From positions 1-43,617 of the forward strand of contig JALWLO010000086.1 in NCBI GenBank assembly GCA_027084135.1: a stretch of 43,617 nt of DNA. The letters run 5' to 3'. Origin of the DNA: Campylobacterales bacterium (GTDB taxonomy: Bacteria > Campylobacterota > Campylobacteria > Campylobacterales > QNZT01). Made by a program: the position numbers and the translations under genes. Below are positions 25,530 through 43,008 of the stretch, piece after piece. How positions within the stretch are numbered: position 1 is the stretch's first letter; each line of letters begins with the position of its first letter. The notes below the pieces were generated by a model. That model made no database searches. It worked only from the letters and a program-made list of their open reading frames with translations, and had not been told where the DNA came from.

Positions 25530-28500
25530 TCAAAAACTTTTGGTCAATTGATCTAAAGATTCGTTATCAAGCTTCATTCTCATTTTGAGATAGGCGCCCT
25601 CGGCGCTATTGAGATAGGTTGAGAGATCTTTATCATAGTAGCCTTTGAAGTTGTATCCTACACCTAAGTAGAGATTTTTAAAGAAGCTATATCCTAGATA
25701 TCCGCCGTAACTCTCCTGCATATCCCCGCTCTCCCATATATGCAGGAGTGAGCCGTTGACTCCTATTTCGATTTTTTTGCTTAAGTCATAGATCGCTTCA
25801 AGACCGATAGCGTCAACCGTAGTACTAAACTCATTATTATCGATTTTTTCTCTATTTATCTTTATGGCATAGTGGCTGGATATTTGACTTTTGTTTGAGG
25901 GATTTATGACTCCCTTTAGAGCAGCAATAACTGTTTTGCTATCACTATATCTATCTTTACGGTGATCTATTTTTAGTTGAGAGAGTAGGGTATATGCACT
26001 ATCGCCTCTATAGGCGATACTAAATTTTGCTTCACCGTCATAAGCTCTAGTACTATTTATCTCATTACTGATATTTTCTCTGATACCCATAGCAAAGCCC
26101 AAGTCTCTATTTAGCTCAGTATATGCACCGAAGTTGATGTTCAACTTATCGCTTTGAAACCCATCTTTATACTCAAGCATCGTATTAAAGATCCATTTTT
26201 TGTGTTTGTAGTTTGCTCCGATGGAGTATGAGGTGTAATCTTTTTGTATATTATTTGAGTCTAAAGATTTTTGATTCTCTAAAGCGGCATTTATCGAGAG
26301 CTTTTTATTGACTCTGTAGTATTGGTTCAGACCTAAAAATCCAAAGAGTCTATTTTCATCGTTTTCAAGCTTTTGTGTGATACCGCTTTGTATCGTAGCG
26401 CCTCTCCATGCCATACCTTTGAGACCGATTTTTGATGCTCTCTCTTTTTCGGTTTTCCCTTCTAACATCTCATGGTTGACAAAAAGTTCCAAAGTGTTGG
26501 TCACTCTATAGGATAACTCTCCAAAAACTCTATCTTTTTGATAATTACTTCGCTCTGCGATACTCTTTTCATAGGCCAATGAGAGACCTACTTTTCCGTG
26601 AAAAAATCTCTTTTGAAGTGCGGATATGATCTGAGAGAGATCGCTCTCTTTTTTGATAGTGTCTTTTGCAAATCTATACCCAGCTATCGCCATCCAGCCA
26701 CCCCTATTAAAGATTAGCTTGCTCTCAAGAGTATCTCGTTTACGATTATCTTTTAGACCTTTTTCACCATGGTAGGATAGGGCAATTAAAAAGTTGTCAA
26801 AGTAGCTTATCGTACTGTCGATACCGTATCTATTTGACCCTGCGAGAGAGTTATTTTGAAAGCCGAGTCCAAAGTCTCTCTCTTGGTGCCTAATATAGGC
26901 TTTCGTATGAACGAATTTATTGAAGTGCTCCATCTCTACTAGATAGGCATTTGCACTGGAAGATGCTTTTTTTGTTGTAGCATATTCCCCGTTTAGTACC
27001 AAGTTTTTGAGAAGATTGATCTTAAAATCTGCGCCATAAAGGGTGTCATACTCGTCATCTGCATTCTCTTGAGCGATAGTACTAACCCCTACCTCTGCTC
27101 TATCTTTTGCAAATTTAATCGTAGCTCTTCCGCCCGCAACGACCCTATCGCGCTTCTCATCACCCAACTCATACTCTACGACTATCGTTTGAGGATTTCC
27201 GTACCTATCCCTTGAAGCTATCGGCTCTTTAAAATAGATCAAACCGTTTTGATAGTCGATCGAGTAGTCATATATTTCTGCATAACCTCTCTTATCTAGT
27301 ACCAATTCACCCCTATATCTATCTCTAATCTCAATATAAACCTTTTCACTTCCCGGATATATCGAGTCTGTTTTGATTTTGTAGGGACCGCTTGTACCGT
27401 CAGGCACTATCTCCACTCTTTTAAATCCGCTTGAAGTGTTTGAGGCAAAGGCAGTATACTCGAAGCTATCTCCGTGATATTCTGACTTGATACCAGTAAC
27501 TCTTCTGCTATATCTGCTTAGTTCAAGTTTATCAAGTCCCGTTTCAAAGTCACCGAACATCGCATAAAACTGCTCCTTTTCTATCTTGAGATAGAGTTTT
27601 TTGCTTGTCGGTGCTTCGTTTTGGTCGATAGCGTTATCACCGTATATGGTAAACTGCCTACTATTTTGCGCATCTTTGTCGATAAACTCTTTCTCTTTTT
27701 TACTATTTCTACCGCTTTTATAGGCGATGGTTAAAAGTGTATCTTTGCCTATTGTACCTTTTGCAAAGAGTGAAACTTTACCGTCAGTGAGTAGCTCTTT
27801 GGAGTTTACTTTTTTAAGATCTTTTTTGATCTCTTGATAACCTATACTCCCTTCTGCAAAGCCCACTAACAACCACTCTCGATTTTTAGGTGTTAACCAT
27901 GTTGTAAGGTATTGATTTGGTTCTTGAAACTCAAAATGAAGTTTAACTTCACCTGTAACGGTTGTCGGCATAAGCTCTATATACGCTATACCGTCATCTA
28001 ATATAATGAACCGATTCCTCTCACCTCTCTCTAATAGCGGATCTTCTTCGTAAAGTTTTGATTTAGCCATAGAAATATAGGGATTTGAAAGCTCAAATGT
28101 TCCGGTTACTCCTCTCCTTAAAGGGTGTCCACTTGCATCATACATCTTTACGGCTATTACCGGTGGATTTTTACCGTCAGCTATGAGATATGATTTTTCA
28201 GGTACGATCACCGCTTTTACTGGTGAGGTTGAAAAGTGCACCTTTCTTTCAAATCTCCCTATCTCTTTGCCGCTTTTATCTTTTACTACCATCTCCAAAA
28301 TATTATCGCCATCTACTATATCGATACCGCGATATTTGGAGATACTCCACTTTTTATCTTTGCTATCGACATATCCGTCAAAATTTAGCATATTTACTTT
28401 TTTGCCGTTTATCAGTAGTTCTACCTTGTCATCCTTTTGATGTAAAAAAGCTACTTTGATTGCCGGCATAGGCGGTATGAAATCCTCTTTCGGCCATAAA

Positions 28501-30104
28501 AAGCCTCTCTTTTTTTTAAATGTATCAAAGGAGTTAGTACTAAAGATTGGCATAGTGATCTTTTTGGGCTTTGGTATTTTGTAACTCATATCACTTCTCA
28601 GAGCAGAGCTGATAGTATTCTCTCTAAGACAGAAGTGTATATCTCCTATATGCGCTGACGAGGTATCGACAAATCTACTAATAGCACTTCCGTTACTTCT
28701 TGCATTTGCTCTACATTCATAGGCGATATATTTACCCTCGATAGAAGTAGGATCTATGGAGACGACATGCAGGGATGGATCGATATCGCTAAAGTGAAAT
28801 CTTCCATATTTGTCACTGATAGCATATCGTCCGCTATCTAGATATATCTTGACACCTTCGACCCCTTTGCTGCTATTGCCGTCAAGCAAAATTTTTCCGG
28901 TTATGGTAGAGCTATCGTCAAACTCTCCTACTCTCTTCACCTTTACCGTAACGCTATTGGAGTACTGTTTATCGTAGAAGAGTAGGCTCTTATTTATGAT
29001 ATACCTTGGCTTTTTTGCCTCATTTCTAATGACAAAGGATATGCTTCTTTTTTGATGTGCTTTTAGTGATAGATTAGTACTAAAGCTGTTATGCGCTTTA
29101 TCTATCGTAAAACCATCAAATCTTTTGTCATCCAGATAAAAGCTGCCCTTTATATATTTTGCACCTCTAGATAGGGTATTTACCAGCTTAGCGGTAGATA
29201 TGTCCATGTTGCTACTATTTTCTAGTACTATCTCGACTTTAAAAAATTCGCCGATACCAACCTCCTCTTTTGAACTATCCATATCTATCCAAACTTTTGG
29301 AGGAGTAGAATTGTTGTTTTGAAGTGTTGTCACCTTTTTAGGTATTTGTGTGATAAAAGCTCTGGCGTGAATCTTTGAAGAAATAGCTCTGCTTTTTTTA
29401 TTAGTACTAGATTTATACAAAAAGGCATCTAACTCATCTCCCTCTTTGACAAAAAGCTTGCCGTCAAATTTGCTTTTGCATCGGGTTGTAGTATTGATAT
29501 ACCCTACATATTTAGTACTATTTCCATCTCTTTTGAGTGTGATGACCTCTTTATCTTCACCACTCTTTATGCAAAACTTTAGACTCTTTTTATCCGCGTA
29601 TGGATCATCATATACTAAAAAGATCGGCTCATCTTTTTTATAAATCAGGCACTTTGCTATCGGAATCTTTTTCCCTATATCGATCTCTTCGCCGGTAGGC
29701 AGTTTGAGAGGGGGTAACTGTTTAAAGCTAGTTTTTGAAGGCTTGTCTAGAGTGAGAAAGTCTATTGCATCGATCTCAACAAAAAAGTTAGAAGATGTAT
29801 CATATCTATAAAAAAGAAGTAAGGGTTCAGGCTTGATAGATGTTTGATTGATATCATTTTGAGTCCTTACTACTATTTTAACATAGTTTGAGATGGCTTG
29901 ATTAACACTATTGCTATTGACTACTTGTGATAAGTTTTGTTGGGTTGAACCTTCTGTAGTATGAGCTTCCCTACTATCTTCATCATCAACAATAAAGGAT
30001 GCTTTAGCGGGAGTAAAAACAATATCTTTAAAATTTACAGAAAAAAGTGAAGTAGGTAGAAAAAATGTATAGAGCAGGAAGAGAAAAATCCATCCTACTC
30101 TCAT
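25530..30104 (-). CDS. Large outer-membrane beta-barrel protein with DUF11 and carboxypeptidase-regulatory-like domains
   Basis: A 1524-aa protein with a signal peptide (about residues 1-22, ending LFSVN). Visible modules in order are: an N-terminal Cys-containing beta region; a DUF11-like domain at about 270-400 (VEIVLENSSNMDISTAKLVN); a Cna-B/carboxypeptidase-regulatory-like domain at about 405-455 (GVEGVKIYLDSGRYAISD then GRFHFSD); Ig-like segments at about 540-740; and, from about 880 to the end, alternating amphipathic strands with Tyr/Arg-rich turns, ending in Phe, as in outer-membrane barrels. This suggests a barrel anchor with a large soluble portion. It is the last gene of a four-gene minus-strand run encoding secreted DUF11-type proteins and may export, anchor or assemble them. 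GAGGA lies five bases before ATG 30104. The gene contains eight exact TAGTACTA copies, five of them between 28535 and 29520. No exact family name is known to me. Confidence 0.75.
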   Translation of the reverse strand: MRVGWIFLFLLYTFFLPTSLFSVNFKDIVFTPAKASFIVDDEDSREAHTTEGSTQQNLSQVVNSNSVNQAISNYVKIVVRTQNDINQTSIKPEPLLLFYRYDTSSNFFVEIDAIDFLTLDKPSKTSFKQLPPLKLPTGEEIDIGKKIPIAKCLIYKKDEPIFLVYDDPYADKKSLKFCIKSGEDKEVITLKRDGNSTKYVGYINTTTRCKSKFDGKLFVKEGDELDAFLYKSSTNKKSRAISSKIHARAFITQIPKKVTTLQNNNSTPPKVWIDMDSSKEEVGIGEFFKVEIVLENSSNMDISTAKLVNTLSRGAKYIKGSFYLDDKRFDGFTIDKAHNSFSTNLSLKAHQKRSISFVIRNEAKKPRYIINKSLLFYDKQYSNSVTVKVKRVGEFDDSSTITGKILLDGNSSKGVEGVKIYLDSGRYAISDKYGRFHFSDIDPSLHVVSIDPTSIEGKYIAYECRANARSNGSAISRFVDTSSAHIGDIHFCLRENTISSALRSDMSYKIPKPKKITMPIFSTNSFDTFKKKRGFLWPKEDFIPPMPAIKVAFLHQKDDKVELLINGKKVNMLNFDGYVDSKDKKWSISKYRGIDIVDGDNILEMVVKDKSGKEIGRFERKVHFSTSPVKAVIVPEKSYLIADGKNPPVIAVKMYDASGHPLRRGVTGTFELSNPYISMAKSKLYEEDPLLERGERNRFIILDDGIAYIELMPTTVTGEVKLHFEFQEPNQYLTTWLTPKNREWLLVGFAEGSIGYQEIKKDLKKVNSKELLTDGKVSLFAKGTIGKDTLLTIAYKSGRNSKKEKEFIDKDAQNSRQFTIYGDNAIDQNEAPTSKKLYLKIEKEQFYAMFGDFETGLDKLELSRYSRRVTGIKSEYHGDSFEYTAFASNTSSGFKRVEIVPDGTSGPYKIKTDSIYPGSEKVYIEIRDRYRGELVLDKRGYAEIYDYSIDYQNGLIYFKEPIASRDRYGNPQTIVVEYELGDEKRDRVVAGGRATIKFAKDRAEVGVSTIAQENADDEYDTLYGADFKINLLKNLVLNGEYATTKKASSSANAYLVEMEHFNKFVHTKAYIRHQERDFGLGFQNNSLAGSNRYGIDSTISYFDNFLIALSYHGEKGLKDNRKRDTLESKLIFNRGGWMAIAGYRFAKDTIKKESDLSQIISALQKRFFHGKVGLSLAYEKSIAERSNYQKDRVFGELSYRVTNTLELFVNHEMLEGKTEKERASKIGLKGMAWRGATIQSGITQKLENDENRLFGFLGLNQYYRVNKKLSINAALENQKSLDSNNIQKDYTSYSIGANYKHKKWIFNTMLEYKDGFQSDKLNINFGAYTELNRDLGFAMGIRENISNEINSTRAYDGEAKFSIAYRGDSAYTLLSQLKIDHRKDRYSDSKTVIAALKGVINPSNKSQISSHYAIKINREKIDNNEFSTTVDAIGLEAIYDLSKKIEIGVNGSLLHIWESGDMQESYGGYLGYSFFKNLYLGVGYNFKGYYDKDLSTYLNSAEGAYLKMRMKLDNESLDQLTKSF

Positions 30105-30119
30105 ATAAATCCTCTAAGA

Positions 30120-31202
30120 CTACTTAATTTTAGCTTTGATATATGCACACTCGGTAGTACCACCCGCAACTGTATCAAAGTCTATTTTTAATGTTCCTTG
30201 TGCATCAGGATCTTGACCGTTGGCTCCGTTAGCACCTGTTATTTCACTCTCATTCGTATTACAATCACAAATTCCAGTTCCGCTATACATTACAACACTC
30301 TGACCGGTTGTATCAAGGATATCTGGATCTAAAGTATCAGTAACAATGGCACCACTTGCTTCAGCTCCTCCCTCAGCATTTGTAACGATGTAGCAATATC
30401 TGATAGTTGCACCAGGAATCCTTTTTGGATTATTAGTACCGTTTACCGGATCGTCAATAACTATTGAGTCTTTAGAAACAGTTACGGTTGCAGTGACAAT
30501 CTTCCAAGCATCAGCACTGCTAAATTTACCATCATGTTCCGCATCTGCACTTCCTGCTCCGTCAGCAAATACGATTTGAACAGTTGCTTTGTCATCTGCT
30601 TGGTTAGCATTATCACTTGTTATCGCATTTCCTTGAGTTGAAGCTGTTCCGCCTTGAGCTACTTGAACTTCGAGGTCATAAACAGCAACATTATTATTAG
30701 CCGCATCAGCTGGCACATCCGCTACGATAAATACAGTCTTCTCTTGATCGGGTTCTAACTCATCGATATATGTTTGGGTATCTTTACTCTCATCATATAC
30801 CCCATCACCATCATCTACAAAAACTCTCACATTTGTTAAGTCATAGTTGTCATTAACTTGATTTTCTCCACTAAATACGGTAGTTGAAGCTGTTAAAGCA
30901 TTTAAATGAAAATCTTGTACAGTATTACCATCATTTCTAACTTTAAATGTTAACAAAACATTGGTTTGTCCCGGATTTGCCGTTACAGCTTGTGCATCAA
31001 CAGTAGTTACCGTCATATCCACTTTGTTATCCACTACATAAGTTTCAGTTGAAGTTGCTTCAGATGTTTGACCATTTACAGTAAATTGAAGAGTTGCTGT
31101 TGTATCAACTGAAGTTCCTGAAAGTGTACCTTGGGCAAAAGCACCAGTAGTACTAAGTCCAAGTAGTGTAGCAACTGCTAATTTTTTACTATGTTTAAAC
31201 AT
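30120..31202 (-). CDS. Secreted acidic DUF11-type surface protein
   Basis: A 360-aa secreted protein with a clear signal peptide (MFKHSKKLAVATLLGL, cleavage after AFA). The mature part is very acidic and rich in Thr, Asp, Asn, Ala and Val, with few Lys, which suits an abundant extracellular structural protein. The first half is paralogous to the 311-aa protein three genes upstream: LLTFKVRNDGNTVQDFHL matches LTFKVLNSGNGTDRFNL, and both continue into an Asp-rich loop (FVDDGDGVYDES here) and EPDQEKTVFIVADV. The C-terminal third is DUF11-like (IPGATIRYCYIVTN, then TDTLDP) with cysteine pairs GICDC and TECAY. It may be a surface-layer or fibre subunit; this is inference. GGGGG lies upstream of ATG 31202. 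Confidence 0.65.
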   Translation of the reverse strand: MFKHSKKLAVATLLGLSTTGAFAQGTLSGTSVDTTATLQFTVNGQTSEATSTETYVVDNKVDMTVTTVDAQAVTANPGQTNVLLTFKVRNDGNTVQDFHLNALTASTTVFSGENQVNDNYDLTNVRVFVDDGDGVYDESKDTQTYIDELEPDQEKTVFIVADVPADAANNNVAVYDLEVQVAQGGTASTQGNAITSDNANQADDKATVQIVFADGAGSADAEHDGKFSSADAWKIVTATVTVSKDSIVIDDPVNGTNNPKRIPGATIRYCYIVTNAEGGAEASGAIVTDTLDPDILDTTGQSVVMYSGTGICDCNTNESEITGANGANGQDPDAQGTLKIDFDTVAGGTTECAYIKAKIK

Positions 31203-31227
31203 TATTAACCCCCTATATATGTTTTTT

Positions 31228-31710
31228 TTATTTTAATTTTGTTTTAAAGCTAACAGAAGTTTCTCTGTTTGCACCAAGTTTTGAGAGTATCCATCTAACA
31301 TTTGTGTAGTCTTTTGCCGTAGCTACTCTCTCAACACCGCCTCTCTTAACCTTCAAGTCTTTAGCTTTTGCAAAATGCTTTCCGCCGTCAACGGAAAAGA
31401 GTATCTCACAATTTCCTTCACATGATGCACTATCAGGCACATAAACCGTATGTTTTGGTATAGTGTTGTTTAGTACCATATTTTTGGCATCACTTTTGGA
31501 GTTATTTTTTATAATATTTTTATATACAACAATATCTCCCGGAATAACCTTTTTTGCATCAACCAAAATCACCTTTCTTTTACCACTCTTATCAACCTTG
31601 ACGACCTCTTTGTATGCTTTGGTAACCAATTTGATAGGAGAGTTATCTTTAGCATGAATGCTTAAGCTTATAAGCATAGATGCAACGATAAGACGAATCG
31701 ATCTTTTCAT
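31228..31710 (-). CDS. Small secreted DUF11-domain protein
   Basis: A 160-aa protein with a signal peptide (MKRSIRLIVASMLISLSIHA) and one DUF11-like domain: IPGDIVVYKNIIKNNSKSD, then NNTIPKHTVYVPDSASC, then NVRWILSKLGANRETSVSF. One cysteine pair (CEGNC) is present. It is basic, in contrast to its acidic downstream neighbour. AGGAG lies seven bases before ATG 31710. It sits between the two paralogous secreted proteins and may be a partner, cap or minor subunit. The assignment to DUF11 is from sequence pattern only. Confidence 0.65.
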   Translation of the reverse strand: MKRSIRLIVASMLISLSIHAKDNSPIKLVTKAYKEVVKVDKSGKRKVILVDAKKVIPGDIVVYKNIIKNNSKSDAKNMVLNNTIPKHTVYVPDSASCEGNCEILFSVDGGKHFAKAKDLKVKRGGVERVATAKDYTNVRWILSKLGANRETSVSFKTKLK

Positions 31711-31722
31711 CCTATAGCTCCT

Positions 31723-32658
31723 TTATCTTACTCTAAGCCTATATTTTGCAATATAGTGGCTAGATATATCCATATCGCCTAAATTCAAAAAAATTTTAGC
31801 TTTTCTGTTTTTATAGCGTCTTTTATATCTTCCCTCATCCCCATCTTTTTTGTCTGTTAGTCCCCTACCATTGAGCGTTAAAGAGTTTTTAATATATATT
31901 GTTTCATTTGGAATTTCATCCTCAATCTTTACATTTTTTACCACTCCATCACCGTCAACGGAGATATCAAGTGTTACGGTGATTATCCCTTTATCATCTT
32001 GCTTAACACTCTTTTGTAAAATCAAAGTCGCTTTTAAAAATTTAAAATTTCCTTCATCTTCACCGATACCTCCATTTAGACCGTCAATGGCATCAACCCT
32101 TTTTTCCCCTTTTTGGGGATGTACTTTTCCTGGTATTCCACTCCCGCCTCTTCTTGATACCGCTTTTAATGAGTAGTAGGCTTTTGCGCCGTTTTTTGCA
32201 TCTTGTTGTTTACCTATATCAGATACGATAAATACCAACTGCTCTTCATCGGGTTTAAGAGTGACGGTTTTTCTAACTCTGTCAGATGAGTCAAGGTAGT
32301 AGTTTCTGTTTCTATCAAGATAAACTTTGCTTTTTTTTGGTTGAAAGTCAGATTTGTAGCTTAAGAACTTTTTTATCAAGTTAAACCTATCTGTACCGTT
32401 TCCGCTATTTAAAACTTTAAATGTTAAAACTCTCTTTTTATCTCCAGATACTACGGTAATATCTTGTGCATCAATCCAGGATACCTTTACATCGATAAGT
32501 TGAGCGACAATGCTTTTTTGTACATTACTTTTGGTATGAAAGTCTCTATTACCCATTTTATAATCAAGTGTAGCCACATTTGTTATAACGGTTCCAGCTT
32601 TAACACCCTTTGCAAAAAGTTGGGGTATAAAAAGTATTAGAAATAGGAATATTCTCAT
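31723..32658 (-). CDS. Secreted DUF11-type protein, first gene of the surface locus
   Basis: A 311-aa secreted protein with a signal peptide (MRIFLFLILFIPQLFA). After cleavage it begins with the GTVITNVATLDYKM segment typical of DUF11-rich surface proteins. The middle resembles the 360-aa protein (LTFKVLNSGNGTDRFNL, YLDRNRNYYLDSSDR, LKPDEEQLVFIVSDIG). The C-terminal part is a DUF11-like domain (NVKIEDEIPNETIYIKNSL). Unlike its acidic paralog it is Lys/Arg-rich. The ATG at 32658 has only a weak ribosome site. An AT-rich inverted repeat lies just upstream. Confidence 0.65.
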   Translation of the reverse strand: MRIFLFLILFIPQLFAKGVKAGTVITNVATLDYKMGNRDFHTKSNVQKSIVAQLIDVKVSWIDAQDITVVSGDKKRVLTFKVLNSGNGTDRFNLIKKFLSYKSDFQPKKSKVYLDRNRNYYLDSSDRVRKTVTLKPDEEQLVFIVSDIGKQQDAKNGAKAYYSLKAVSRRGGSGIPGKVHPQKGEKRVDAIDGLNGGIGEDEGNFKFLKATLILQKSVKQDDKGIITVTLDISVDGDGVVKNVKIEDEIPNETIYIKNSLTLNGRGLTDKKDGDEGRYKRRYKNRKAKIFLNLGDMDISSHYIAKYRLRVR

Positions 32659-32737: not shown

Positions 32738-33274
32738 CTAATGACAGTTAAGCGTTAATTTTGCAGATGTGTTATTGAAGTATGGAGGGTATTTCATCTT
32801 GACTCTAAATCTCTTAATCTCTCCCGGTTTTATATTTTTTGCGACTAAAAACTCCTCTTTGACGCTATTTGATTTATACTCTTTTTTATCCCCAAATATC
32901 GAATCCAAACCTCTTGGCTTAAAAAAAGAGTCTTTAGGTCTTCCCATCTTATAGACATTGTTTGTGAGCTTGACCTCTACCTTGCAGTAGCCAAGCTTAT
33001 AATCACCGGTATTTTTCAATTTACCGTTGAAGATGATACTCTCACTCATCAAATCTCTTCTATTGTCATAAGAGAGTAGTTTTGATTTTTTTGTAAACTT
33101 CTCCGCAGCAAAGAGCGCTATGATAGCTCCTAACAATACGACAAAAAATGATGAGATGATCATGATGATTCTATTTTTTGGATTTTTCTCTTTGAAGGAT
33201 AGTATTACTAAAATGATAAAGAGTAGGACAAAAAGTGCAACAACGATCCAGTGGATAGTAGTCATATAAAACAT
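32738..33274 (-). CDS. DUF2393-like membrane protein, second copy
   Basis: A 178-aa protein with two N-terminal hydrophobic helices (about residues 9-30 and 40-60) and a periplasmic or extracytoplasmic domain containing FNGKLKNTGDYKLGYC and a C-terminal TLNCH. It is a tandem paralog of the gene upstream ([21 protein letters not shown]). DUF2393 is a family I associate with Campylobacterota; its function is unknown. ATG 33274 overlaps the upstream stop as TGATG and has GGAG eight bases before it, so I prefer it to the GTG at 33283. The stop codon TAG (complement of 32738-32740) lies inside a TAGTACTA copy. Confidence 0.65.
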   Translation of the reverse strand: MFYMTTIHWIVVALFVLLFIILVILSFKEKNPKNRIIMIISSFFVVLLGAIIALFAAEKFTKKSKLLSYDNRRDLMSESIIFNGKLKNTGDYKLGYCKVEVKLTNNVYKMGRPKDSFFKPRGLDSIFGDKKEYKSNSVKEEFLVAKNIKPGEIKRFRVKMKYPPYFNNTSAKLTLNCH

Positions 33275-33804
33275 CAGTAACACTCCGCATGAAGAGTTGT
33301 ATTAAAATCCCTGCTATAATTGAAATGATCTATGACAATTTTAAACCCTTTTTTATCACCTTTACTTAAATTCTCTTCTAGGAAGATCGTCTTTTTTCTT
33401 AAAGGCTTTAATCTAAAAAGCATATTTTTATATTTGTTGCGAAATGTTTGAAATACGGTTGCGGAGATAAAACATCTTTGCAGCTTCACTTTTCCGCTAT
33501 TTTTGAGTTTTCCTGTGATGATGAGAGATTGTGCATAGTGCAGCTTTGTAATATTTGTATCGAGCAGTTCCACTTTTCTGACACTTTTATCTAAGAAGTA
33601 TTTGATTCCAAACGGTCCTGCGATTATGAGGATGAGCGTCAATAGTGTCATCCATATAGCGAGTTTCGGTTTTTTGCGTGCAAGTAGAACGATAAGTACT
33701 AAGATAATAGTGATCAAAAAAAGTAGCCACCCAAAAGCTACATAGTCATAGATCGTTAGAGAGTGAAGGTAGGTGAATAGCTTTAGCCTAATCTCCTCTA
33801 TCAC
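33274..33804 (-). CDS. DUF2393-like membrane protein, first copy
   Basis: A 176-aa protein with two hydrophobic helices (about 22-42 and 48-68), then a soluble domain with [16 protein letters not shown] and a terminal HAECY. One conserved Cys in the mid-domain and one near the end are shared with the neighbouring paralog and might pair. The start is GTG at 33804, overlapping hisIE by 17 bp. The overlap chain suggests co-expression with hisIE and the SPFH gene. Confidence 0.65.
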
Positions 33805-37098: not shown

Positions 37099-39126
37099 CT
37101 ATTTTGCATATATTATCACTTTACCGAGTTCTTTTAATTTTTCCTTTATCGCATCGATAGCGATATCGTTATAGTTGATGTCGATATCTTCAGTTTTCTT
37201 ATCTTTCCATCCCTTGTATATCGTACCGTTGTAGGCGCTTATGATCTCATTTCCATCATGTTGATCTCTGTTTTTATAATAGAGATTTATGATCTTCTCA
37301 TCACCGATATTATCAACGCTCCACTTTCCATAAATGGTATCAGGCGTGAGCTGTTTTGCAGTAGTTGTTGCATCGTTATTGTTAGTAGAAAGTTTGATGT
37401 AGCCCTGTTTAGTGGTAGCATCACACTCTTTACCATCCATACCTACAAGGATACCGATTTGACACATGCGATTGATAAAACCGTTGATATCACTATCTTC
37501 TACAGATTTTTCATAAAAGCTCTTTAACGGTTTATCAAGGCTATAACGCTCTTTTCCCTCGATACCTATCAAATATCTTTTAGCACCATCAGGCATCTTT
37601 ACAAAGGTATGAAGCTCTTTAACAAAAATGTCTTGATTGGATAGATCTTTTTCTGATAGTAGTTTGACTTTTACATTCTCATCGGAGATACTTAGAGTAC
37701 CGTCACTATTGATTGTGTATTTCCAACTTCTTTTATCCTCCTCTTGAGTCCACTTTCCGCCTTTTAGTACGATCTCTTGATATTGATCGTCAGAGTTGTC
37801 ATCGTCGATCTTCATAAAGTCTCCTATTTCCGGATCAAATCCTAGCTCTTTTTCTGATATTTCACCTTTGCCTAAAGTGATCTCGGCTATCTGAAAATTT
37901 GGCTTGGATGGATCAAAGCTCAGTCTATAGTTATAGAATTTCATACCCTCTTTAAATGCGTGTTTCGCGCCATCGATTTCAGACTTTACTTTCTCTCTCT
38001 TTATCTTCTCTTTCTCCTGTTTCTCTGCTACTTTTTCATAGATATCTTTGAGTTTGTCATCATTTTTTAGCTTCTCTTTCATCTTTATGACGGTACCTGG
38101 TTTTATTTTTCCGATTTTTGCTTTTATCGCTTGAAACTTTTCATCGTCTATTTTCTTGTCCAGATCTCTCTCAAGAAACTTTTTCTCCCACTCCTCTTCA
38201 CTTTTCGGTAGTTGCGATAGCTCTATATCTTCAATATCTTTTCCTTCTTTAATCCTTTCGATATCATCATCGATGAGCACAGAGACTTTTTGCATATCTT
38301 CAAGTTTGTCTAACGCTTTTTCTATCTTTTTAGAGAGTTTTTTTGCCTTTTCAATTTTTGCTTTGATGAGTAAATCATCATTGAAACTTTCATCCAAAAG
38401 CGCATCTAAAGGATCATCATCTGAGATATCTTTGATCTTATCAAGTGTTTTGGCTAATTTATCATAGACTTTTTCTACGCTATTATCATTGTTGTCTTCA
38501 GCTAGAGCTTGTGCTACTTTATGGAGTTTGATAGCTTTCTCTAAGAGTTTTTTATCTCTTTTCTCTTTATATAGTTTCACAGGATCTTTGTCGATATCCT
38601 CTCTCTTAAGATCTAGGATTTTTGCAACTAACGCTTTTTTTGCCTCTATCTCTTTTTTGATCTCATCTTTTGAGAGTTTTTTATCTTTGATCTCCTCTTG
38701 CACAGCTTTTGCTACAAGTGTTGTAATAGGGGTTACGACTATCTTATCTGAATCAGCCGGAGCCAAGAGTTTACCGATGAAGTCATCACCACTATCAACA
38801 TCTTTGCCGCCATATACGAGCAACATCGCTTGGTCGAAGTTTGGATCTTTCTGAATATCGGCAGAGATATCTAACTTAAATGAGCCATCTTCTAAAGTTT
38901 GTGTAGTCGGTTCACCTGCTTGGCAATATCCATCTTTGTTGAGGTCTAAACAGACTGTTGCATATTGGAGATAGCCGTCAACTGCTTTTCCCTCTATACT
39001 TTTTGTGACTTTTGAGTTATCAACATCTGTACCGTCGCTGCTTGCAGGGTTTCCTCCGCAGCCTACTAAAAATGTACTGAGTGCTATTGAAACTAATGCT
39101 AAACTTTTTACGGAATTTCTTTTCAT
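37099..39126 (-). CDS. Lipoprotein of unknown function with long charged helical region
   Basis: A 675-aa lipoprotein precursor with a signal peptide and lipobox LVGC (Cys23), followed by GGN. Residues about 45-130 look like a beta domain with two cysteines (VCLDLNKDGYCQAGEP, with a D-x-N-x-D-G calcium-loop-like segment). About 150-390 are highly charged (Lys, Glu, Asp) and probably helical or coiled-coil. About 400-670 are predicted mixed beta, with a Cys pair near 560-570. I do not recognise the family. AAGGAG lies about ten bases before ATG 39126. It is likely anchored to the outer or inner membrane on the periplasmic side. Confidence 0.7.
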   Translation of the reverse strand: MKRNSVKSLALVSIALSTFLVGCGGNPASSDGTDVDNSKVTKSIEGKAVDGYLQYATVCLDLNKDGYCQAGEPTTQTLEDGSFKLDISADIQKDPNFDQAMLLVYGGKDVDSGDDFIGKLLAPADSDKIVVTPITTLVAKAVQEEIKDKKLSKDEIKKEIEAKKALVAKILDLKREDIDKDPVKLYKEKRDKKLLEKAIKLHKVAQALAEDNNDNSVEKVYDKLAKTLDKIKDISDDDPLDALLDESFNDDLLIKAKIEKAKKLSKKIEKALDKLEDMQKVSVLIDDDIERIKEGKDIEDIELSQLPKSEEEWEKKFLERDLDKKIDDEKFQAIKAKIGKIKPGTVIKMKEKLKNDDKLKDIYEKVAEKQEKEKIKREKVKSEIDGAKHAFKEGMKFYNYRLSFDPSKPNFQIAEITLGKGEISEKELGFDPEIGDFMKIDDDNSDDQYQEIVLKGGKWTQEEDKRSWKYTINSDGTLSISDENVKVKLLSEKDLSNQDIFVKELHTFVKMPDGAKRYLIGIEGKERYSLDKPLKSFYEKSVEDSDINGFINRMCQIGILVGMDGKECDATTKQGYIKLSTNNNDATTTAKQLTPDTIYGKWSVDNIGDEKIINLYYKNRDQHDGNEIISAYNGTIYKGWKDKKTEDIDINYNDIAIDAIKEKLKELGKVIIYAK

Positions 39127-39536: not shown

Positions 39537-41900
39537 TTATAACTCTATCACTCTCTCAAACATCTCTTTGATTTCACTTTCATGTGAAATGAGAAATATC
39601 TCTCTATATCTCTCTTTGATCTTATGAAATGCTTCCATGATCTCATATCTTCGCTCCTCGTCTTGTGAGCCAAACACCTCATCAAACGCCAAAAAACCGA
39701 TACTTTTTCCTCCGCCAAGTTCACTCACGCTTCGTGATATGGCGATCCTTAGTACTAGGTTTGCCAAGTCGATCTCCCCGCCGCTAAACCTCTCTATCGG
39801 ATACTTTACCCCCTCGTCATAGATGTAGAAGTTAAACTCGCTATCCACCTCGATATGCTGATACTTTCCTCTTGTGATATCGGCAAACATACTGCTTGCG
39901 TAGGAGCTGATCCGCGGAGCGATATGAGCGTTTATGCGATCTTTAAAGCTTTGTAGATAGGCTTTAAGTTTTTCATAATCCGCCCTCTGGGCTATCTTGC
40001 TCTCCATATCCGCCCTCTGCTTTTTATCCCGCTCTATTGTATCCTCTATACTCTTTATCTCTCCCTTTAGTGCGGTAACTGTAGTACTAAGCTTGAGTAC
40101 TTCGCTATGGCTCTTCTCTATCATCTCTTTGAGTTTCTCATTCTCATCTTTTACGGCAAGATGCTCTTTTTCGTTATATTTGGACTCTTTGAGTTTGGCT
40201 TGGGCGCTCTTTTGTCGGCTCTCTAGCTCTTGGAGTCTTTTGGTAGCTGATTTTATCTCCGCCTCTACCTTGACTAACTCCTCTATCTTCCCCTTTATAC
40301 CCAAAAGCTCTCTATATCTTGGTTCCAACGCATCTCTCTCTTTTAGTACCGATTTATGTTCATTCTCATCATAGGTGATCTTCTCAAGCGCTTCTAACTC
40401 TCTTTTGTTTCTTTGTCCCTCATCCTCTACAGCTCGAAACTCTCTTATTTTAGTATTTAACTCCCTCTCTTTTGACTCTATCGTTTTGAGGATATATTGT
40501 GACTCTTGAAGGCTTTTTTGATTTTTTTCTATCTCTTTGCCACTTTCATCCCTCTTTAGTACTAAAGGTTCAAGCCGCTTTTGCGCGTTTGCTATTTGCG
40601 TCTGGGTGAGGGTGTTTATCTTTTGGTTGAGTGAGTCTATCACGCTGTCATACTCGTCAAGCAGTTTTCTAGTGCAGGTAGGGCACTCCGACTCTCTGCC
40701 TAGCTCTTGGATCTTTTTCATCTGACTTTTTGTATGAGCTATGACTCCTTCATCCTTTTTGATTTGTGACTGTAACTGCTCTATCTCTTGCTCTATCTTT
40801 TTCTGCTCCTGCTTGAGCTTCTCTATCTCTTTCTGTTTGCTTTCTATCTCTTTTGCGACACTACTCTTTTGGCTAATAAACTGTTCAAGCTCTTTGATTT
40901 CACGCTTTAGACTTTTGTATCTGCCTCTTAGAGCCTCCTGCTCCTTTTTGAGTCCCTCTTTTTTTTCGATTTTCAGTTTTTTCTCATTGAGAAGTTGGAG
41001 TTTTTTGTTTAGCGCTTCATATTGTTGCAGCAAGTTTTTTTCATTATCAAACCTTTTTGACAAATCGTGTAACTCTTTTTGTTTCGTACGAAGTTTTTCT
41101 ATGCTCTCTTTTTGGTCTATTACCCTAGTACTAGCGTTTTTTACCAAGTTTTCAAGGTGGAGTTTCTCCTCTTTGAGTTTTTGCCACCTCTCTAGTGTAG
41201 TTGCTATCTCTTTAGCACTTCTTTTTAACTGCTCTTCGTTATGTTTTAACTTTTCAAGTTTGGCTGTTTGAGTGACGAGAAGTTCGCTCTTCTCTTTTGC
41301 CTCCTTTTTGAGTCTATCTAACTCCTCCTCTCTCAAGAGTACGCCGGTTAGTGCCTCTATCTCTCTTCTTAGAGTCAGCATCTTCTCCTTTATCAGAGCT
41401 TCAACCCTATCTATCTTTTCAAGTCCGAGAAGCTCTCTCATCATCTTTTTTCGCTCATCTTGGTTTAGTGAACTAAGCGATGTCAGCTCTTTTTGAGAGG
41501 CAAATACCGTCTGCTTAAATGCCTGCTTATCCAGACCGACGAGAGAGGTGATGCTCTTTGTTACCTCACTTGAGCTGCTTGAGATAAGTTCATCTTTTGC
41601 ATCATATAGAGCCGCTTTTGCTGTGAGAGTTCTACCTCTAAACTCCCTTTTTACCCTATAATCCTTTCCCTCTATCTCAAACTTCAACTCCACTTCAACA
41701 GGGTCTTTCGGTGAGGCGCTTGAGTGTCTTATCAACTCTTTTGCCTTTGTTGTGCCGTAGAGTGCGAAAAATATCGCTTCAAAGATAGTCGATTTTCCGG
41801 AGCCGTTTCTGCCGAGTATGCCGGTTAGTCCTTCAGAAAATTCAAATCTTTTGCTTTTAAACTTTTTGAAGTTTGTTATTTCGAGACTAAGCAGTATCAC
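39537..41900 (-). CDS. sbcC: SbcC/Rad50-type DNA repair ATPase
   Basis: A 787-aa ABC-type SMC-like ATPase that works with SbcD to open and trim DNA hairpins and ends. Walker A is GRNGSGKS near the N-terminus, the two coiled-coil arms flank a zinc hook CPTC (near nt 40680), and the C-terminal lobe has the signature FSGGEIDLANL and Walker B FLAFDEVFGS. GTG 41900 (VILLSLEI) is chosen because GAGGAG lies eight bases upstream; the frame is open to another GTG at 41921. It overlaps sbcD by 14 bp. It is smaller than E. coli SbcC (about 1050 aa), with shorter arms. Confidence 0.92.
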   Translation of the reverse strand: MILLSLEITNFKKFKSKRFEFSEGLTGILGRNGSGKSTIFEAIFFALYGTTKAKELIRHSSASPKDPVEVELKFEIEGKDYRVKREFRGRTLTAKAALYDAKDELISSSSSEVTKSITSLVGLDKQAFKQTVFASQKELTSLSSLNQDERKKMMRELLGLEKIDRVEALIKEKMLTLRREIEALTGVLLREEELDRLKKEAKEKSELLVTQTAKLEKLKHNEEQLKRSAKEIATTLERWQKLKEEKLHLENLVKNASTRVIDQKESIEKLRTKQKELHDLSKRFDNEKNLLQQYEALNKKLQLLNEKKLKIEKKEGLKKEQEALRGRYKSLKREIKELEQFISQKSSVAKEIESKQKEIEKLKQEQKKIEQEIEQLQSQIKKDEGVIAHTKSQMKKIQELGRESECPTCTRKLLDEYDSVIDSLNQKINTLTQTQIANAQKRLEPLVLKRDESGKEIEKNQKSLQESQYILKTIESKERELNTKIREFRAVEDEGQRNKRELEALEKITYDENEHKSVLKERDALEPRYRELLGIKGKIEELVKVEAEIKSATKRLQELESRQKSAQAKLKESKYNEKEHLAVKDENEKLKEMIEKSHSEVLKLSTTVTALKGEIKSIEDTIERDKKQRADMESKIAQRADYEKLKAYLQSFKDRINAHIAPRISSYASSMFADITRGKYQHIEVDSEFNFYIYDEGVKYPIERFSGGEIDLANLVLRIAISRSVSELGGGKSIGFLAFDEVFGSQDEERRYEIMEAFHKIKERYREIFLISHESEIKEMFERVIEL

Positions 41901-43008
41901 CGAAATGCTCCTCGACTTCACTAAACAGCTCTTTGGCTTTGGTACTCAACCTCTCCAACTCCGACTTATCCTCGATACTCTCTTGAAGATGTGAGAGAAA
42001 GTACTCCTCAAGTGAAACAGGTTCAAGCACTTGGCTTATCTCCTGATGCTTCGTATCTTCAAACTCTCTTCTTATCTTCACACTCATCGCACCGTCAAAA
42101 AGTGCTTTGACGGATTGGTTGGTTATATCGATGGAGCTTGAGGGGGTGAGATTGTAGAGCCGTACCTCAACCATCGCATCTTTTATGCCAGATCTATCGA
42201 GTTTCTCTATCTCACTCTCAAAATCTTTCGCATCTATCTCAAACTCCAAACTCTTTCTTAGCTCTATAGTATGGAAAGTTACCTCTACATTACCGTTTAG
42301 TACTAACTCTATAAAGCCTTTATTTTCCCTCTTATCTTTAGAGCTTGTCCTCTCGGTAGAGCCGCTGTAATAGACATTTTCCCTACCGCCCACACTGCCA
42401 AATCCGTGCCAATGCCCAAGCGCTACATAATCCATCTCATCAAAGAGCCCCTCTCTCTCCTTTGGATAGACCCATTCGCCAAACTCTCCCATCAAGTAAC
42501 TAGCCCCTACACAACAGTGCATCATAAGGATATTTTTTTTGGATTTGTCTATGGAGTTTTCTATCTTCTCTAGTTCATCGGGGATAAGCCTCTCATCGTG
42601 GATAAACGGCAGAGCATGAAAGATAATATCATCAAACTCTACCTTTTCATAGTGCTGTTGATAGACGGCATGAACATTATCAAGTGTCTCAAGAGCGCTA
42701 AGTATCGGCAGGGAGCTACCGCTTCTTGGGGTCGAGTGGTTTCCGGCGATGATGATGAAAGGAATATCATTATCTTCAAGTCGTTTTATCTGTTTTAGAG
42801 CGCTTGTGATGGCGCGGTTTGACGGTGAAGCTCTGTGAAAGAGATCGCCCGTGTGTATCACAAAGTCCGGTTTTATCTCAAGTATCTTATCGATAGAGTC
42901 GCTAAAAGCTTTGTAAAAGTCTGCTTCCCTCTGATTTACACCGTTTTCATCGATAACATCAAGGTCGCTAAATCCCAAATGGGTATCTGAAATGTGTATG
43001 ATCTTCAC
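41887..43008 (-). CDS. sbcD: SbcD/Mre11-type exonuclease
   Basis: A 373-aa metallophosphoesterase nuclease. The phosphodiesterase motifs are all visible: SDTHLG (8-12), GDLFH (about 54-58), GNHSTPR, MMHCC and GHWHGFG. These bind two metal ions in the Mre11/SbcD nuclease, which forms a complex with SbcC. It starts with GTG at 43008 behind AGGAA. The C-terminal part is the capping and SbcC-binding region. Confidence 0.93.
   Translation of the reverse strand: MKIIHISDTHLGFSDLDVIDENGVNQREADFYKAFSDSIDKILEIKPDFVIHTGDLFHRASPSNRAITSALKQIKRLEDNDIPFIIIAGNHSTPRSGSSLPILSALETLDNVHAVYQQHYEKVEFDDIIFHALPFIHDERLIPDELEKIENSIDKSKKNILMMHCCVGASYLMGEFGEWVYPKEREGLFDEMDYVALGHWHGFGSVGGRENVYYSGSTERTSSKDKRENKGFIELVLNGNVEVTFHTIELRKSLEFEIDAKDFESEIEKLDRSGIKDAMVEVRLYNLTPSSSIDITNQSVKALFDGAMSVKIRREFEDTKHQEISQVLEPVSLEEYFLSHLQESIEDKSELERLSTKAKELFSEVEEHFGDTA

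Follow-up and report, generated by a model that had tools for sequence, protein, structure and literature searches.

Four minus-strand genes, here called A, B, C and D, which follow one another in the same orientation, separated by 12, 25 and 15 bp, in a 43,617-nucleotide stretch of contig JALWLO010000086.1 from a Campylobacterales bacterium (the window, meaning the whole stretch of DNA analysed), constitute a real unit that is inherited together, and it is tentatively suggested that their products build a single surface fibre, or adhesive stalk, which is rooted in the outer membrane and composed of split DUF11/CLIPPER subunits. This four-gene system cannot be assigned to any named family, every other candidate family failing a defining profile test, and no description of the locus was found in the open-access full-text literature. 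A first-pass annotation of this DNA had proposed that the genes are tightly spaced, run in one direction and all encode signal peptides, and this was borne out: the four open reading frames are found where it had placed them (Table 1), and A, B, C and D each start with a hydrophobic leader which, judged by eye, resembles a Sec signal, while a lipobox Cys is absent from all four leaders. In the surroundings, a tandem pair of DUF2393 membrane proteins is encoded directly upstream of A (window 32738-33804); small membrane genes of this kind also lie upstream in one related locus (L014) and are absent from that place in Sulfurovaceae. Downstream of D, a cold-shock gene and a gene for a TPR protein occupy the opposite strand. 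Elsewhere in the window, a 675-aa protein without any Pfam match (37099-39126) adjoins a RecF/SMC-type ATPase (39537-41921) and a calcineurin-like phosphoesterase (41887-43008) that together make up an SbcCD-like pair.

Table 1. Genes and domains of the four-gene locus in window coordinates; secretion and the labels donor and acceptor are putative.
Feature	Position	Strand	Description
Gene A	31723..32658	-	311-aa secreted protein; N-terminal donor hairpin, middle NEW3/DUF11-like domain, C-terminal DUF11 without last strand
A, donor motif	32506..32598	-	AGTVITNVATLDY...SN, Asn27; resembles last hairpin of a DUF11 domain
A, C-terminal truncated DUF11 (acceptor)	31726..32025	-	Lys216, Asp247; ends YxLxVx-COOH
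Gene B	31228..31710	-	160-aa secreted single-DUF11 protein; acceptor-like C-terminus, no donor hairpin
Gene C	30120..31202	-	360-aa secreted two-domain Ig-like protein; donor and acceptor
C, N-terminal hairpin (donor motif)	31032..31133	-	motif Asn replaced by Thr in the window's genus
C, C-terminal truncated DUF11-like domain	30123..30491	-	Lys244, Asp289; each 73/73 in homologues
Gene D	25530..30104	-	1524-aa predicted outer-membrane barrel protein; N-terminal Ig-like domains
D, mature N-terminus, donor-type motif	29880..30041	-	IVFTPAKASF...ISNYVKIVV; Asn to Thr in the window's genus; profile comparison E 0.003
D, DUF11 plus carboxypeptidase-regulatory-like module, residues 270-500	28605..29297	-	recognised through profile matches in homologues
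D, Ig/invasin-like domains, residues 535-735	27900..28502	-	Invasin_D3 at E 0.085 only; AF2 model
D, C-terminal giant beta-barrel, residues 740-1524	25533..27887	-	predicted; AF2 and Foldseek; end GAYLKMRMKLD...

The coherence of the unit is apparent from its distribution. A scan of one genome per species over 84,980 species revealed 74 loci encoding relatives of D, in Campylobacterota, Sphingomonadales, other Alpha-, Beta- and Gammaproteobacteria and one Troglogloeales bin. Leaving out two paralogous loci, four at contig edges and two duplicate entries, 61 distinct loci had usable upstream sequence (L010 and L013 are one place, as are L011 and L015, and counts refer to distinct loci). Profiles for A, B and C recovered the order A-B-C-barrel in 58/61 of these, including three in which a copy is added or a frame is split; the remaining three comprise two loci with B-C only and one with a C-like protein instead of A. 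Strong matches to D, B and C fall in the identical 8/298 Campylobacterota genomes, beyond which there are weak DUF11-only matches within very long reading frames in two other genomes. A search for the four-gene order in these eight carriers gave A-B-C-D in seven and B-C-D running up to the contig end in the eighth, and the Campylobacterota barrels form one group in a tree (support 94). Because the order recurs in 58/61 loci and one set of 8/298 genomes contains all of D, B and C, the arrangement is not due to chance. Independent occurrence of the genes in relatives, which the first-pass annotation had regarded as fatal to its proposal, is not what is seen. It could also be argued that these are ordinary co-located cell-surface genes without joint function, as DUF11 proteins are common and functionally varied; this view is contradicted by the same-genome co-occurrence and by an order kept across phyla at ~30% identity, and is hardly credible. 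In Sulfurovaceae and some other carriers, D is succeeded by an optional fifth gene, the product of which has a C-terminal domain resembling C; this gene is absent from the window. Cultured hosts of the cassette are Sphingopyxis and Parasphingorhabdus, and more divergent relatives are found on an Acinetobacter plasmid, on a Pacificitalea plasmid and in a cyanobacterium. One locus (L044) lies on a metagenome-assembled contig titled Bordetella parapertussis; its barrel clusters with those of Nitrospirota and Lysobacteraceae, and the title is probably that of a mislabelled bin.

With regard to domain content, B scores above the Pfam DUF11 cut-off (PF01345, E 2.4e-6) and A above that of NCBIfam B_ant_repeat (E 1.1e-5), whereas the window's C and D stay below the DUF11 threshold themselves and have aligned homologues that match (10/16 in the case of C). 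The DUF11-like fold that had been attributed to all three small proteins is therefore matched directly in A and B, and in C by way of its homologues. The predicted structure of C (pLDDT 85.9) returned generic Ig-type Foldseek matches alone, for example to integrin and antigen I/II domains.

An argument for a divided domain comes from the chain ends. The Pfam DUF11 match is clear in three homologues of A, and in each of them the protein ends precisely where the match has reached profile position 83-84 of 114, so that about 30 positions including the last strand are missing; the DUF11 domain inside D of L014 is complete (profile positions 1-113). The missing end has the form NxA...SNxxxxxV, and the mature N-termini of A, C and D take the form IxNxAxxxY...SNxVxxxV. 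The subunits moreover share a C-terminal register, most commonly FxVxIx-COOH. Counted with patterns drawn up after the alignments had been viewed, and hence descriptively and not as a blind test, the C-terminal motif is present in 62/64 A, 66/67 B and 71/73 C (199/204 subunits) against 25/1215 control ORFs, and the N-terminal motif in 58/64 A, 63/73 C and most D, with 1/67 in B and 8/1215 among control ORFs. The likeness of these N-termini to the DUF11 tail was assessed by a sliding-window profile-profile comparison, with the tail of the D-internal DUF11 as query and with sliding-window controls, an approach adopted because an ordinary HMM of the tail scored close to background on the N-termini of A and C. 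The N-terminal windows ranked first in A (E 0.0012), D (0.003) and C (0.013), and no match to the tail was found in B. Scores of 16.5 in A and 14.5 in D compare with at most 12.4 in unrelated windows, and the N-terminal 16.5 of A with at most 9.7 elsewhere in that protein; the score of C, at 12.7, is marginal and barely exceeds the unrelated background. Taken at the level of alignments, the truncation of the domain and the conservation of its residues are evident in the subunits, and A and C have the appearance of DUF11 (CLIPPER) units shifted in register.

The residues needed for an isopeptide follow the same division. Among homologues, the acceptor Lys is kept in 62/63 A and 73/73 C, the acceptor Asp in 63/63 and 73/73, and the donor Asn in 62/63 and 66/69, respectively; the D-internal DUF11 holds the triad in one chain (Lys 25/30, Asp 26/30, Asn 27/30). 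The Lys-Asp-Asn triad of CLIPPER/DUF11 domains is, as far as residue conservation can tell, present at family level, with Lys and Asp in the acceptor and Asn in the donor. In the solved CLIPPER (DUF11) domain these three residues form a bond within one chain (PMC12617251), whereas here they are divided between the domain body and a detached strand, and the Asn strand is at the N-terminus, so that the bond would be between chains (or circular). In the window's genus the donor Asn is kept by A only, with Thr in C and D, and the D-internal triad is degenerate; a covalent joint there could thus involve the donor of A only, and a non-covalent joint is unaffected by this replacement.

According to the split-subunit reading that we tentatively prefer, the four products would act as follows: i) Sec would export A-D to the periplasm, where D would fold as a very large outer-membrane barrel; ii) a tandem DUF11 stalk would be divided into subunits at points one strand short of the end of each domain, the next subunit completing the fold; iii) A and C, with an acceptor C-terminus and a donor N-terminus, could join head to tail into a chain; iv) D, which starts with a donor-type strand and would be donor only, could hold the first subunit and so be the root; v) B, with an acceptor end only, should sit at a terminus as tip or cap; vi) the joint may be covalent, engaging acceptor Lys and Asp and donor Asn as in SpyTag/SpyCatcher, except that the link of B, which lacks the conserved Lys and Asp, would be non-covalent; and vii) the barrel of D would be the likely exit and anchor of the chain. 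SpyTag itself is engineered and derived from the CnaB fold. We infer strand exchange, covalency and polymerisation from the motifs and residues described above, and export through the barrel together with a surface location is suggested by the leader sequences, by the predicted barrel, by the partner rule and by how long the giant proteins beside related barrels are; D would then also be the point of anchoring. Against strand donation, the N-terminal hairpin of A and C may instead pack on its own chain. No dedicated chaperone gene was found at the locus. A stronger version of the split-subunit reading, in which a split-isopeptide polymer links covalently and spontaneously head to tail without sortase or chaperone, is rooted covalently on and exported through a ~38-strand tag-bearing barrel, and has its one-chain version in the giant DUF11 adhesins of sister barrels, is doubtful.

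Related information comes from a sister (type-2) arrangement. In the same genome, on another contig (G000:C96; L009 2330-13083), a 2416-aa protein with DUF11 and SdrD_B-like repeats and a C-terminal OmpA-like domain (OmpA recognised by eye) precedes a related 1168-aa barrel. This pair is a second, paralogous system with relatives on many alphaproteobacterial plasmids, and pairs of giant protein and barrel were found on plasmids of Croceibacterium, Nitratireductor, Phyllobacterium, Eleftheria and Sulfitobacter. In these sister loci one giant DUF11 protein stands in for A-B-C. A profile of D residues 270-500 has its best match near the C-terminus of the upstream giant protein in 7/7 type-2 loci examined, and in the cyanobacterium Kovacikia this module lies in a protein of its own (542 aa) immediately ahead of the barrel, with domain E-values between about 3e-19 and 6e-34 across these loci. 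That one lineage has the module within the barrel protein and another has it in the adjacent protein points to the two being in physical contact. The Kovacikia plasmid (L128 880-12551) encodes proteins of 796 aa and 542 aa, a 1311-aa barrel and an 867-aa DUF11 protein in a row, and the Acinetobacter plasmid encodes B, DUF11 proteins, the barrel, an OmpA-family protein and a 978-aa DUF11 protein. In Sulfitobacter (L127 1-3594; record 68909-88285 of NZ_CP083561.1), a 19377-bp gene (~6458 aa) annotated as hypothetical directly precedes the sister barrel. DUF11 fibrillar adhesins with an OmpA anchor have been described, e.g. Acinetobacter B9T28_05395 (PMC12617251), and these resemble the present systems in having DUF11 stalks and OmpA in Gram-negative bacteria, the related giant proteins adjoining D-type barrels; in contrast, the putative stalk encoded in the window is made up of separate subunits, and the barrel protein itself contains one DUF11 module.

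The type-2 loci, with one giant DUF11/OmpA protein beside a related barrel, together with the tight co-inheritance and the barrel model, are also compatible with D being an export or anchor barrel for cognate surface proteins that do not polymerise but form a complex or an adhesin, the motifs then being ordinary parts of the DUF11-family fold. This is the strongest competing reading and would still amount to an undescribed system, although it is rather unlikely, leaving unexplained both the common point at which DUF11 stops in A, B and C and the invariant Lys and Asp paired with an Asn strand at the opposite chain end. The first-pass annotation had likened the locus to an export/anchor barrel with its cognate surface subunits, and this proposal is partly supported: co-inherited partners and a predicted barrel were indeed found, and export, anchoring and surface exposure are roles that they suggest.

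As for D itself, DUF11 matches were obtained in the N-terminal part of homologues at six loci (L014, L015, L017, L020, L024 and L086) and CarboxypepD_reg in 17/27 homologues, so the DUF11 and regulatory-like domains previously assigned to D hold for its family, but the window's own copy falls below the DUF11 threshold and lacks the CarboxypepD_reg match. An AF2 monomer model built from D residues 390-1524 and 27 homologues predicts that the C-terminal region, whose failure to form a barrel had been named beforehand as a second argument against the proposal, is a barrel. The model, which is of medium confidence and silent on gating (pLDDT 73.7, pTM 0.56), has 40 strands of at least 6 residues beyond model residue 380, a few of which form part of a small domain at D residues 921-958, and 32 consecutive strands from D residue 971 to 1509; a low-confidence stretch (model 354-446) may conceal further strands. 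A simple amphipathy test is passed by 29/40 strands, and strands of the Ig domains pass it too. About 36-40 predicted transmembrane strands is a fair estimate, and no measurement.

The Foldseek neighbours of this barrel are generic large barrels (SlpA, LptD, SprA), the best structural match being the 30-strand SlpA of Deinococcus (7zgx; E 8.7e-8, TM only 0.22-0.24). SprA of the T9SS (6h3i; E 2.3e-5, TM 0.20) is a weak match and of the same size class (36 strands), and FimD is a weak generic fold match at rank 40. SlpA of Deinococcus radiodurans combines an SLH domain and a coiled coil and forms trimers, and three uncharacterised barrels predicted with 38 strands in the same species (PMC9388160) might belong to the same superfamily as D. 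Both SlpA and D are giant single-chain barrels, and D differs in its DUF11/Ig domains, its partner genes and a TM-score of ~0.24 only. If the barrel with its Ig-like domains and the three small proteins together served as an envelope connector, either in a structural or S-layer-like layer or as a tether between outer membrane and peptidoglycan, as SlpA/OmpM do, the fold match and the OmpA-type domains in related loci would be accounted for; this is improbable, however, since profile scans detected neither an SLH nor an OmpA domain in A-D of the window, and the giant proteins beside sister barrels, encoded by genes of up to 19377 bp, look too long for the periplasm. Compared with the homotrimeric 30-strand barrel of such connectors, the model of D, which is that of a monomer, is predicted to have more strands. 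It has likewise to be considered that D is a TonB-receptor-like channel for the uptake of nutrients or macromolecules, with A-C as surface lids or substrate binders, because automatic annotation labels related barrels "TonB-dependent receptor" and an exbBD-tonB operon lies downstream of one type-2 locus. This is very improbable: plug and receptor-barrel profiles of TonB-dependent receptors match neither D nor its 27 relatives, the predicted strand number is far over 22, and no TonB or ABC transport genes adjoin the genes of the window.

Family tests, carried out with Pfam at E up to 1 on the window's D and at 0.01 on 27 relatives, found no barrel family matching the window's D. The usher (PF00577), the POTRA/ShlB profiles of two-partner secretion (TpsB), the 12-stranded autotransporter domain of type Va (PF03797; more strands are predicted in D), the DUF560 barrel of type 11 secretion (Slam) and SprA_N of the T9SS were matched neither by D nor by the 27 relatives, and no recognised T9SS partner genes adjoin D. 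A PapD-type chaperone is absent among the scanned neighbouring genes of the window, and no further gene recurs in related loci. Searches by sequence against solved structures gave nothing useful. The earlier statement that no known secretion, usher or S-layer system fits thus holds at profile level. In its mode of action the system would come closest to a chaperone-usher pilus with a SpyTag-like joint, yet it is no member of that class. What they have in common is an outer-membrane barrel with co-encoded secreted Ig-like subunits, which appear to lack the last strand and to have an N-terminal donor strand, and which end in an alternating C-terminal motif at fixed register. On the other hand, the barrel of D is predicted to be much larger than 24 strands and has a donor-type strand itself, and the subunits have a DUF11 (CnaA-like) fold with a possible isopeptide.

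The split-DUF11 signature, the broader taxonomic spread and the version with a giant protein go beyond the first-pass annotation, and they concern a conserved four-gene system of Pseudomonadota and Campylobacterota that has no name and whose barrel has no Pfam family. If the split-DUF11 reading is true, bacteria build surface fibres with a SpyTag/SpyCatcher-like joint, and one of the largest predicted single-chain barrels would acquire a defined set of partners. Should the strongest, covalent reading also be true, these genes would represent a new class of Gram-negative surface-fibre assembly.
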